A stretch of 64,000 bases of DNA. It comes from Spirochaetales bacterium (GTDB lineage: Bacteria; Spirochaetota; Spirochaetia; UBA9216). A model generated the notes under the pieces. The model searched no databases, was not told where the DNA came from, and was given only the letters and a program-made list of their open reading frames with translations. The number at the start of each line of letters is the position of its first letter. Within the stretch, counting starts at the first letter, position 1. Shown here piece by piece: positions 6,556-15,459 of this stretch. Made by a program: the position numbers and the translations under genes. The stretch covers positions 62,001-126,000 of the forward strand of contig JAEKNX010000013.1 of NCBI GenBank assembly GCA_016839055.1, written 5' to 3'.

Positions 6556-7413
6556 TTATAATCCCAAGCTGAACATGGTCAATATAGAAGACTGAGCCCA
6601 TGGCGATCGATAAAATCGCTTCTTAAACTCGACAACATCTTTTAACAGTTTTAAATCTGCAAGAGCATCAGTTTTCACCTGGGTATCTGCCATACGGTGC
6701 AGATCATAATAATGGCGGGAATATCGTAATGGTAAAGCTTTACTCTCATCACGAGGCGCTTCCTGATGCAAGATTGTGGCTTTTTCCCAAAAAGTTCTCT
6801 TTGCCATTACTGTACGAATTGATGTTTCAGGATGTTCATATACATCCGGATAATAATCAGCTGAATATGGTTTGATTATCTTTTCTTCAGACGGAACCCA
6901 AGCCGCCAGAGGCCCTATTTCCAATAGAATTGTTTGTAAAATTGATTCATTTTTAAAGCTTCGCGGATAGGCAAATCTCACATTTTGATTCTCATCTGAG
7001 GAGATATCTGCTTCTATTCCAAGAATCTTTGAAAAATCATTTTTCAAAACAGGGACAAATGATTCAGAGAGAAATTGAACTGTCTTTAGATTTGCTTCCC
7101 GATTAAACCTATCCTGTTGATTATTACTTCTATCATCCCAAGGTTCATCAGTTTTATAGCCCAAAAGAGTCCAGTCGATTATCAGATCTATGTCTTCAGA
7201 AAACCTTTGTATAAGGTTGTATGCCTTTGAAAGACTTGTTCCACCTTTGAAAGATAATTGCTCTTTCCAATTACTCTTATGAAATAAATAATCAAGAGTC
7301 CAGCATACCCAGAAATCCTTTTCAATAATAGCTTCGTTTATTCCCATCTTCTGAGACGAAGCCCGAAACAGCTCCAGTCTGTCCTTATCGGGTAAATTTG
7401 CAACTCTATTCAT
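6556..7413 (-). CDS. abiEii: AbiEii-type nucleotidyltransferase toxin (type IV toxin-antitoxin / abortive infection)
   Basis: The protein belongs to the AbiEii/AbiGii DUF1814 nucleotidyltransferase family. Known members pyrophosphorylate or nucleotidylate tRNA and cause growth arrest, giving phage resistance. The family motif is seen at about residues 56-80 as FKGGTSLSKAY followed by FSEDIDLII, with Gly-Gly-Thr-Ser and the metal-binding D-x-D. The 285 aa length is typical. Its start overlaps the end of the antitoxin gene by 8 bases, the usual coupled arrangement. No operon partner follows downstream. Confidence 0.88.
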   Translation of the reverse strand: MNRVANLPDKDRLELFRASSQKMGINEAIIEKDFWVCWTLDYLFHKSNWKEQLSFKGGTSLSKAYNLIQRFSEDIDLIIDWTLLGYKTDEPWDDRSNNQQDRFNREANLKTVQFLSESFVPVLKNDFSKILGIEADISSDENQNVRFAYPRSFKNESILQTILLEIGPLAAWVPSEEKIIKPYSADYYPDVYEHPETSIRTVMAKRTFWEKATILHQEAPRDESKALPLRYSRHYYDLHRMADTQVKTDALADLKLLKDVVEFKKRFYRSPWAQSSILTMFSLGL

Positions 7414-8029
7414 TATTTTGAATCTCCAGCTGGCATGCTTTCTTTATAACATCATAAACCCAATCAGTAACATACATCGCTTCTTTCAGAATTCTTTTCC
7501 GTTCTTTTTCATCAAGGTGCTTGGAAACGGTCATTATCACATTATCATCAACATTTTTCTCACCAAGGGCTTTAAGAGCCTGTACAATGAGTGCAGTTTT
7601 AGGAGAAAGGATAGTAGTTTCCTTGTTTGTCCGGTGTTTAAATTTCATGGTGTTCCCAAACCATTCATAGCTTCTGTAGGGACCATCACTTAAGTATTCC
7701 CAAGTTGACGGTACCTGGGTAGATAAGCCCAGCAAATTAAGGGCAGTATTACCGTCGGGCAGTATCGTCCAACCATGCGAACGTGCAATTGCCTGTGCTA
7801 TTTTATCCGGATCCGGTGGTGATAATTCATTTAATAGTTTGCTTTCGGCAGGATAGTCATAAACGCCGCGCATAATTCTCCGGATATTTCCTTTGTCAAC
7901 TATCCTGGATAATACACTCCAAGCGGTTGCCGGATTTGCTATATCAGAAAAATCTGACGACACAAACACCCAACCCCTACCATGTCCATATATGCGACTA
8001 ATTACTTTATCTGTAGTACTTTCCGACAT
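7406..8029 (-). CDS. abiEi: AbiEi-type antitoxin / transcriptional regulator (DUF6088-like)
   Basis: This is the cognate antitoxin of the downstream nucleotidyltransferase. The N-terminal winged helix is visible (FSDIANPATAWSVLSRIVDK, about residues 27-46), followed by IRRIMRGVYDYP, the standard AbiEi/DUF6088 block that follows the helix-turn-helix. The C-terminal half is the neutralising domain. AbiEi proteins repress their own operon by binding inverted repeats, and a 32-bp palindrome lies just upstream at 8046-8077. A good ribosome binding site (AAAAGGTGG) is placed 8 bases before the ATG. Confidence 0.87.
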   Translation of the reverse strand: MSESTTDKVISRIYGHGRGWVFVSSDFSDIANPATAWSVLSRIVDKGNIRRIMRGVYDYPAESKLLNELSPPDPDKIAQAIARSHGWTILPDGNTALNLLGLSTQVPSTWEYLSDGPYRSYEWFGNTMKFKHRTNKETTILSPKTALIVQALKALGEKNVDDNVIMTVSKHLDEKERKRILKEAMYVTDWVYDVIKKACQLEIQNNE

Positions 8030-8045
8030 ATTTTAAGCCACCTTT

Positions 8046-8163: not shown

Positions 8164-8752
8164 TCAAATCCCCTGCGTAATCTCCAATACATCCTTATAT
8201 TCATCCGCATGAAAATAGTTCTCCGTCATCCGGTCGGTGGAATGGCCGGTGATAGTCTGCACCTTCGGAATCGGAACTCGTGAATTGATAAGCAAAGAAT
8301 TGAAGAAGTGCCGCCAGGAGTGGAAAGTGATATTACGTTCACGACGAAGCTTTTCATCGATTCCGATATTCTTCAATGCTTTGTGAAAGTTCACCTCGAT
8401 TATCCGGGTATCGAGAGGGGCTTCCCGCTTGCGGCCGAAGAAGATTAGATCATCCGGTTCCTTATCTGGGGCTATTTCCATCACTTCATCAAGTGCTGTC
8501 TTGGTTCGCTCAGGTATAGGAACATACCTGCTTCTGCCAGTTTTAGTGCCTTTTAAACCATGCCCCCTTTTCCCATGAAACCGATACATCAATATAGTCA
8601 TCAAACACAGATTTCAGCTGCAGGGCACGAATTTCACCCATACGCATGCCTGTAGTGGCTGCTATGAGGTTTATTGCAAAATATCGATTATCGTCCCAAT
8701 CCCTTGCAAAGAAGGCCTGAACCTCTTCCACACTAAGTATTCCTCGATCTCT
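8164..8752 (-). pseudogene. Tyrosine recombinase (phage-type integrase), frameshifted and N-terminally truncated
   Basis: Two overlapping reading frames together encode a tyrosine recombinase catalytic domain. The upstream frame (8752-8543) has TTGMRMGEIRAL with the first catalytic Arg. The downstream frame (from about 8570 to 8164) has HSWRHF (H-x-x-R), TGHS and TENYFH with the nucleophilic Tyr. They would join as EKG-HGLKG if one G were removed from the five-G run at 8563-8567 (minus strand), so a single-base insertion explains the break. Upstream the frame ends at a TAG at 8753-8755, so the N-terminal arm-binding and core-binding domains are missing. It lies next to tRNA-Pro, as expected for an island integrase. 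A sequencing error in the homopolymer would not explain the missing N-terminus. Confidence 0.85.
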
Positions 8753-8761
8753 CTATGCTAC

Positions 8762-8840
8762 AATCTGCCGATCAGGTATAAAAAAAGGATTGATTGTAAT
8801 TAAACAATCAATCCTTTGAATTGTATCGGGCTGGGCAGAT
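8762..8840. repeat. Left copy of a 79-bp direct repeat (tRNA-Pro 3' end plus terminator)
   Basis: This copy matches 8969-9047 at a constant offset of 207 bases; the main difference is six bases (8818-8823). It contains the terminator stem-loop ggattgattgt/acaatcaatcc and the last 14 bases of tRNA-Pro (cgggctgggcagat), after which the sequences diverge. A partial tRNA 3' end beside an integrase remnant is typical of an attachment-site duplicate. Confidence 0.85.
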
Positions 8841-8968
8841 GGAGGAAGGATAAACTTCTTCGAAGTTTCCCCTTCCTCTGAAGTTTGTCGGTGCCAAACT
8901 TCCAGATTTTATTATTCAAACCATTAGAAATGATAAAGCAGCTCTAAACATTCAACCGGCCTAGTTCA

Positions 8969-9047
8969 AATCTGCCGATCAGGTATAAAAAAAGGATTGA
9001 TTGTAATTAAACAATCAATCCTTTTTTAACTATCGGGCTGGGCAGAT
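8969..9047. repeat. Right copy of the 79-bp direct repeat, continuous with intact tRNA-Pro
   Basis: This copy holds the terminator and 3' end of the complete tRNA-Pro gene. It also starts inside a 14-base sequence, agttcaaatctgcc at 8964-8977, which is the exact inverse of the tRNA T-arm at 9041-9054. The terminator is therefore flanked by an inverted repeat of T-arm sequence. Confidence 0.8.
8986..9027 (-). terminator. Rho-independent terminator of tRNA-Pro
   Basis: A perfect 11-bp stem (8994-9004 with 9011-9021) closes a six-base loop, with an A/T run on each side. On the minus strand the T run directly follows the stem, 12 bases past the tRNA. Confidence 0.85.
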
Positions 9048-9106
9048 TTGAACTGCCGACCCCGTGTCCCCCAGACACGTACGCTAAACCCCTGCGCTAC
9101 AGCCCG
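9033..9106 (-). tRNA. tRNA-Pro (anticodon GGG)
   Basis: The minus strand folds into a cloverleaf with acceptor stem CGGGCTG/CAGCCCG, anticodon stem CGTGT/ACACG closing the loop CTGGGGG (anticodon GGG), T-loop GTTCAAAT and discriminator A. CCA is not encoded. The gene marks the right border of the defence island. Confidence 0.93.
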
Positions 9107-15090: not shown

Positions 15091-15111
15091 CACCATACAT
15101 TTAAACAACAA

Positions 15112-15183
15112 GGCGCCGTACCCAAGTGGTAAGGGAGAGGTCTGCAAAACCTCGATGCAGCGGTTCGAATCCGCTCGGCGCCT
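15112..15183 (+). tRNA. tRNA-Cys (anticodon GCA)
   Basis: The acceptor stem GGCGCCG pairs with CGGCGCC, the anticodon stem GAGGT/ACCTC closes the loop CTGCAAA (anticodon GCA), the T-loop is GTTCGAAT and the discriminator is U as usual for cysteine. CCA is not encoded. Its last 14 bases start an 85-bp repeat array. Confidence 0.95.
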
Positions 15184-15194
15184 TTCATATTCAG

Positions 15195-15220
15195 AACCCG
15201 GCTATTATGCCGGGTTTTTC
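15195..15220 (+). terminator. First terminator after tRNA-Cys
   Basis: Stem aacccggc/gccgggtt with a short loop and a T run (15214-15219) lies 12 bases after the tRNA. A smaller ccgc/gcgg hairpin with a seven-T run follows at 15228-15248 as a possible back-up. Confidence 0.8.
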
Positions 15221-15277
15221 ATCATAACCGCAAGGCGGGCTTTTTTTCAAAAAGTCCGCTCGGCGCCTTCTTTACTT

Positions 15278-15304
15278 AAAGACCAGCTTTCAGCTGGTCT
15301 TTTT
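15278..15304 (+). terminator. Second terminator hairpin in the tRNA-Cys repeat
   Basis: Stem aagaccagc/gctggtctt closes a small loop and is followed by a T run. It occupies the same position in repeat unit two as the first terminator does in unit one. Confidence 0.8.
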
Positions 15305-15459
15305 CGTTAGAGGGTCAAGGCGAGTATTGCTTCACATTATCCGCTCGGCGCCTCTCACATACAAACCGCCCTTATTTTCAGCAAAAAGGGTCGAAGAATT
15401 TCCGGGCACAGACTTCAGTAAACTGTCTACTAATCAAGACAAGATTTGTCAGGTTTTTC

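Follow-up and report, generated by a model that had tools for sequence, protein, structure and literature searches.

A tRNA-Cys repeat array in a spirochaete genome and its probable place in a large RtT-like class of non-coding repeats at tRNA and tmRNA 3' ends

INTRODUCTION

The rtT RNA is a processed RNA that is linked to the stringent response. RtT repeats (Rfam RF00391), found at the E. coli tyrT-tyrV and Salmonella tRNA-Pro loci, resemble the spirochaete arrays reported here in plan and in parts: tandem units of about 170 to 180 bp lie behind a tRNA and end in its tail, with an arm complementary to that tail, a GA-rich folded core and a spacer between units. At E. coli tyrV there are three steps of 178 bp, with the arm GGGGAAGGAT against the tail ATCCTTCCCC, and at Salmonella tRNA-Pro the steps are 168 and 169 bp, with a terminator in the spacer and an arm GAGGAT against ATCCTC; the Tyr and Pro loci have different tails and, correspondingly, different arms, much as in the spirochaete units. 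A passage in one paper notes a tandem GA motif in RtT (PMC7657543), and an entry in another lists rtT RNA with a 175-bp VNTR of varying copy number in Salmonella (PMC2658671).

Here, we follow up a tandem repeat behind the tRNA-Cys gene of a Spirochaetales genome, within a 64-kb stretch of DNA that was analyzed as a whole (the window). The original prediction had likened this locus to E. coli tyrT and its rtT repeats, and the likeness proved closer than claimed, extending to the spacer, the tail-complementary arm, the tail copy and, in longer units of the same kind, the GA-rich core. The spirochaete units share with RtT a position behind a tRNA, a boundary formed by a copy of that upstream tRNA's 3' end, and a closing helix of 5' arm and tail copy (5 bp in the Cys units), although the Cys units, at 85 bp and with a single hairpin, are shorter than RtT. 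A search of the full-text literature, in which few subscription journals are covered and which is thus weak evidence of absence, found no description of spirochaete tRNA-tail repeats.

RESULTS AND DISCUSSION

The tRNA-Cys array of the window

The array comprises the resident tRNA, two intrinsic terminators and two short units, which we call type S:

15111..15184, plus strand: tRNA-Cys (GCA), the resident tRNA, whose tail (15170-15184) the units copy (ARAGORN; Rfam tRNA, 64.4 bits)
15195..15219, plus strand: intrinsic terminator 1, AACCCGGC..GCCGGGTT plus T-run (fold z -5.2)
15230..15269, plus strand: type S unit 1, with GCAA, arm GGCGG (15234-15238), stem-loop and tail copy TCCGCTCGGCGCCTT (15255-15269)
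15278..15304, plus strand: intrinsic terminator 2, unrelated in sequence to terminator 1 (fold z -6.6)
15316..15353, plus strand: type S unit 2 (degenerate), with CAAGGCG, weak stem-loop and tail copy TCCGCTCGGCGCCT (15340-15353; z -1.9)

As originally predicted, the tRNA-Cys 3' tail occurs three times at exact 85-base steps: TCCGCTCGGCGCCT stands without mismatch at 15170, 15255 and 15340, a repeat finder gave spacings of 85 and 85, and with up to two mismatches the sequence matched four times in the 64 kb against 0.33 expected, a count that none of 100 shuffles gave. The constant offset of caaggcg (15231 and 15316, 85 apart) was likewise borne out, as was the description of two terminator hairpins that differ in sequence on both sides yet stay paired, both being far more stable than their shuffles. 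The notion that a unit is nothing but tail plus terminator was wrong, as each Cys unit holds a second hairpin, GCAAGGCGG...TCCGCT, whose 3' strand is the tail copy itself. The order within a unit is GCAA, the 5-nt arm GGCGG, a variable stem-loop and the tail copy, of which the T-stem strand CCGCT pairs with the arm. This arm:tail hairpin is strong in unit 1 (z -4.9, equaled by 0 of 200 shuffles) and weak in unit 2 (9 of 200 shuffles equal), and by eye no U-run terminator lies directly 3' of the third tail copy. The tandem GA motif is absent from these short units. We dropped the idea that caaggcg is the 5' remnant of an internally deleted tRNA-Cys, as GCAAG also occurs in the Leu-caa unit, where the tRNA starts differently.

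Longer units at other tRNA genes of the same genome

The Cys array is real and no local oddity: 8 of the 44 tRNA genes of the genome (Cys, two Met, Thr-cgt, Pro-cgg, Pro-ggg, Leu-caa and Leu-cag) carry tail repeats, counted as an exact 14-nt copy of the gene's own tail within 400 nt and excluding copies that belong to another tRNA gene. Five of the eight (two Met, two Pro and Leu-cag) have longer units with steps of 181 to 207, ordered as spacer/terminator, arm complementary to tRNA positions 56 to 65, GA-rich structured core of about 105 nt and tail copy; in one example the arm GGATTTGAAC is the reverse complement of the resident tRNA's T-loop and T-stem. One such array, at Pro-ggg, is the second array of the window and runs on the minus strand from 9106 down to about 8762:

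9033..9106, minus strand: tRNA-Pro (GGG), the resident tRNA
8987..9027, minus strand: terminator behind tRNA-Pro (by eye)
8967..8976, minus strand: arm GGCAGATTTG, a perfect reverse complement of positions 56-65 of tRNA-Pro
8826..8840, minus strand: tRNA-Pro tail copy (ATCTGCCCAGCCCGA) that closes the long unit (identical over 14 nt, at +207)
8762..8776, minus strand: start of a second Pro unit (part of the arm), broken off beside a broken tyrosine recombinase gene

The broken recombinase gene (8164-8752, minus strand) lies directly behind the array and its broken second unit, with a Phage_integrase (PF00589) match in the piece 8164-8613, and an open reading frame with DUF6088 (7406-8032, minus strand), which may belong to an island or a toxin-antitoxin-like module, adjoins the remnant.

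Elsewhere, a Gly-ccc unit is a truncated copy, and at tRNA-Thr (CGT) (L046) the anticodon arm recurs along with the tail and the spacers are identical, which marks a tandem repeat of another kind, derived from the tRNA. Among Rfam families only tRNA reached its gathering cut-off, other matches at E<=1 falling below their own cut-offs and looking chance-like. The Met array gave no blastn match in phages or plasmids, and we rejected a phage or plasmid origin on that ground. Pattern matches at L038, L039, L041 and L042 look like chance, with coding-like context and, at L038, L041 and L042, no tRNA by eye.

A repeat class across the spirochaetes

We built a covariance model of the core 3' hairpin (R1; 49 positions, 12 pairs) from five units of the same genome, and it matched 114 of 394 genomes of the taxonomic class, in 55 of 132 genera (E<=0.01). 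A pattern scan of contigs returned at least 118 stretches, and because 78 of the 80 matches listed bear titles that name spirochaetes (the other two say only "bacterium"), the repeat class looks spirochaete-bound, at least for the scanned motif. Type S units also lie behind Cys in G021 and behind Pro-ggg in G191. The Cys array of the window is a small, partly degenerate member of the class that owes its place there to its architecture and not to an R1 match. A covariation test would need a longer core than that of type S.

The genomic position of the units was read from 140 R1 matches in 114 loci, 43 of 51 from one match list (without a site that was listed twice and seven matches that were weak or overlapped) and 97 of 99 from another (two weak or cut matches left out). 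A same-strand tRNA gene lies upstream in 119 of the 140, at 70 to 170 nt in 91 of these, and in 97 of the 119 the match continues into 12 nt or more (median 18) copied from the upstream tRNA's tail, against 1 in 2,206 control comparisons with the tails of other tRNAs; 13 of the 119 share less than 9 nt of tail. The tail copy usually starts at C56/R57 of the T-loop. Eleven of the 21 matches with no upstream tRNA have less than 400 nt of sequence upstream, and of the remaining 10, eight lie by eye behind 3' fragments of tRNA genes or tmRNA, leaving L123 and L142. Fourteen tRNA kinds are occupied, as well as tmRNA, and no single tRNA is always occupied. The tmRNA 3' ends that carry units (L188, L194 and L358, by eye) include one on an IMG/VR viral contig. 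The units behind 3' tRNA-gene fragments (L094, L104, L108, L112, L180 and L195) give the impression that the array was separated from its gene when a larger element inserted into the tRNA.

Arm pairing, fold and covariation

The long-type arm pairs with tRNA positions 56 to 65 at 84 to 100% Watson-Crick per position and fades from position 66, as read from 80 units that were preselected, among 91 with a tail copy of at least 15 nt, for an arm pairing at 9 or more of 12 positions; the type S arm pairs with positions 61 to 65. Pairing at positions 63 to 65 reaches 88% with the unit's own tRNA against 29% with others (76 units), and the 200 of 228 own-tRNA pairs compare with a maximum of 93 in 2,000 permutations. 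When 58 full units were aligned, both sides had changed in 28 to 32 sequences at each of the three closing pairs. These counts show that each unit closes with the 3' end of its resident tRNA in copy and that arm and copy both change with that tRNA.

RNAalifold recovered the closing helix and the 3' hairpin from the same 58 units, with just two pairs in the 5' domain, and the fold of that domain thus rests on single-sequence predictions. In an alignment fitted to the model, 94.6% of 3'-hairpin cells are paired and 151 double changes occur, where shuffles give 70% and 38.7. Over 108 distinct model-length matches in fixed columns, 1,169 of 1,296 cells are Watson-Crick, 41 GU and 4 AC, and the excess of GU over AC is why we read the fold on the tRNA-sense strand. 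GU makes up 3.4% of core-hairpin pairs, against 8 to 15% in the tRNA stems of the examined loci, a rarity that would also fit folded single-stranded DNA. Columns 17-31 and 18-30 hold GA/AG in about half of the 108 long-type 3' hairpins and are mostly paired in the rest. Judged by these comparisons, the sense strand of the long type carries a conserved, covarying GA-rich fold.

Terminators, array changes and turnover

A T-run in the spacer was found in 0 of 7 units with another tRNA gene within 450 nt downstream, against 52 of 75 elsewhere (Fisher p 5e-4). A terminator thus lies mostly between tRNA and arm where no tRNA follows and is missing where another does, and because their spacers lack a T-run, operon-internal units look built for read-through. 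Stacked termination, offered earlier as one possible role of the Cys array, looks like a by-product, since units inside tRNA operons have no terminator.

Unit number varied when the tRNA-Cys locus was compared in relatives. Three species of one genus carry type S arrays behind tRNA-Cys, with three units in G036, two in G011 and one in G071, whereas tRNA-Cys has none in G055, of another genus of that family, or in G002, G003 and G004, of the window's own genus. The last of the three G036 units has a partial tail, the G036 and G011 arrays have their downstream flank in common, and no inserted element was seen between units at these tRNA-Cys loci. At tRNA-Ala, two homologous cores (A and B) stand in opposite order in G036 and G011. 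By such comparisons, both the number and the order of units differ between species. No clean pair of empty and filled sites emerged: the one sought at tRNA-Met in genus g61 did not hold up, and Ser-cga at L190, which had looked empty, is probably what remained after a deletion, to judge by its spacer.

The examined loci, in which carriers are overrepresented, contain 331 tRNA genes, of which 148 are followed by a 15-nt tail copy, and tail-to-tail steps peak at 160 to 219 and never exceed 440, from which it follows that no gene-carrying version of a unit was seen. In G179 and G173, the gene that follows the tRNA-Met array (L164, L327-L332) recurs at different sites in four further genomes of the genus, in copies 88 to 94% identical; it looks mobile and is possibly, by eye, a type I restriction gene.

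Comparison with known systems

The spirochaete class is RtT-like by kind and a non-member by the RF00391 model, which matched 0 of 41 spirochaete genomes, and none of nine loci of the window's own genome at E<=1, while a positive E. coli control was recovered and both the E. coli and the Salmonella loci (L357 and L359) were recognized. Conversely, R1 does not find E. coli RtT. The two also differ in the breadth of tRNA kinds occupied, in the stretch that the arm pairs with (56 to 65 in spirochaetes, about 60 to 69 in E. coli RtT), and in the encoded CCA, which the E. coli RtT copy includes, unlike the spirochaete class.

Three other systems offer partial parallels. Integrative elements that enter tRNA genes at the T-loop likewise leave a duplicated 3' end from the T-loop onward and an intact tRNA, whereas the spirochaete unit has neither integrase nor cargo and a fixed size of about 190 bp. 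Integron attC sites and cassette arrays consist of tandem units bounded by a folded site; spirochaete arrays are built in the same manner and change order, although their units contain no gene and their paired foot matches the host tRNA, not a fixed consensus. REP/RAYT repeats are short, non-coding, folded palindromes, which the spirochaete units resemble in being short, folded, non-coding and several per genome, but the latter are bound to tRNA ends and do not need a Y1 transposase.

The interest of the spirochaete repeats lies in their scale, as the RtT kind of repeat has a counterpart class in the many sampled spirochaete genera listed above, with a base-paired foot that tracks the host tRNA. 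Given a counterpart at 14 tRNA kinds and tmRNA, what looked like an oddity of the tyrT repeats becomes testable as a general phenomenon, and it raises the question of how a non-coding element tracks tRNA sequences and whether it is a parasite, an RNA gene or both.

Origin and maintenance of the arrays

Taking the explanation as a whole, we think it rather probable that the Cys array is type S of a large RtT-like class of non-coding repeats at tRNA and tmRNA 3' ends that are transcribed, gained, lost and shuffled. A unit would be transcribed with its tRNA, within operons or elsewhere by read-through, and would fold into an RNA whose 3' end resembles that of a tRNA. New units would arise at the tRNA 3' end, where a tail on both sides would leave the tRNA and its termination intact, and arrays would then grow, shrink and reorder via recombination between identical tails. 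Units may persist because insertion at a tRNA 3' end is nearly harmless, and a cellular role is possible. A simpler origin, in which the tRNA-Cys 3' end was duplicated locally in tandem with its terminator and left a recombination scar of no wider meaning, would account for the tail identity, the exact steps and the degenerate second unit, and tandem growth does occur; however, homologous type S units are found at other tRNAs and, in other families, at Cys too, and the long type is found class-wide. We give this origin hardly any credence, the type S units of other genomes having already largely refuted it.

The main alternatives turn on what moves or maintains a unit. T-loop borders such as the C56/R57 start of the tail copy are used by tRNA-targeting integrases, and that start, together with an arm that covers just positions 56 to 65, is what one would expect if a tiny non-coding cassette were inserted in the T-loop by a trans-acting tyrosine recombinase, with arm and tail copy serving as a folded single-strand attachment site, attC-like, and the terminator keeping the tRNA working. 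The swapped order of cores A and B, the scarcity of GU pairs (which would suit folded DNA) and the broken tyrosine recombinase beside the Pro array of the window point the same way, yet no gene-carrying unit occurred at the 331 tRNA genes, homologous recombination between tails explains the shuffling equally well, and G004 has an integrase-like gene (by eye) behind tRNA-Cys without any unit. On this circumstantial evidence, the best specific candidate for the spread is a tyrosine recombinase that acts in trans at the T-loop, though as an account of the arrays we consider it rather unlikely. Selection on the units as host RNA genes, either useful small RNAs or regulators of tRNA processing or stress response whose tail copy is there to use tRNA 3'-end maturation, would fit the strong covariation with its sense-strand bias, the terminator-free state in which operon-internal units are kept and the annotation of E. 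coli RttR as a small RNA. Against this stand a patchy presence (280 of 394 genomes have no R1 match) and the varying number and order, the truncated Gly-ccc copy and the 14 tRNA kinds, all of which fit turnover better than a fixed gene, and we regard it as unlikely. Copying by a reverse transcriptase or a Y1 transposase, as in a retroelement or a REP/RAYT-like HUH transposon, has in its favor a folded repeat that ends near a terminator and an arm that is guide-like in being complementary to the sequence beside the unit. We find it highly improbable: reverse transcriptase (PF00078) occurs in 18 of 40 R1-positive and 19 of 40 R1-negative genomes, Y1 transposase (PF01797) in 20 of 40 and 14 of 40, and neither was found in the window's own genome. 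Complete or near-complete R1-positive genomes that lack both also exist (e.g., G221 and G393), and we rejected the two enzymes as required partners, given their absence from the own genome and from some other carriers.

Beyond the RtT-like explanation that we prefer, it is conceivable, if on the doubtful side, that the units form an unnamed class of gene-less mobile elements at spirochaete tRNA and tmRNA 3' ends, convergent with RtT or distantly related to it, in which a folded strand moves and the arm is rewritten for each host tRNA by base-pairing-guided insertion or hairpin-templated correction. For annotation, the tail copies can mislead the recognition of attachment sites and genomic islands, and the many matches near contig ends suggest that the arrays break assemblies. 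A further core type, CAATCCATTCC...GCGACGCATGGCGC, forms a long array behind a tRNA-Gly-like gene on the minus strand of L136, where R1 misses it.
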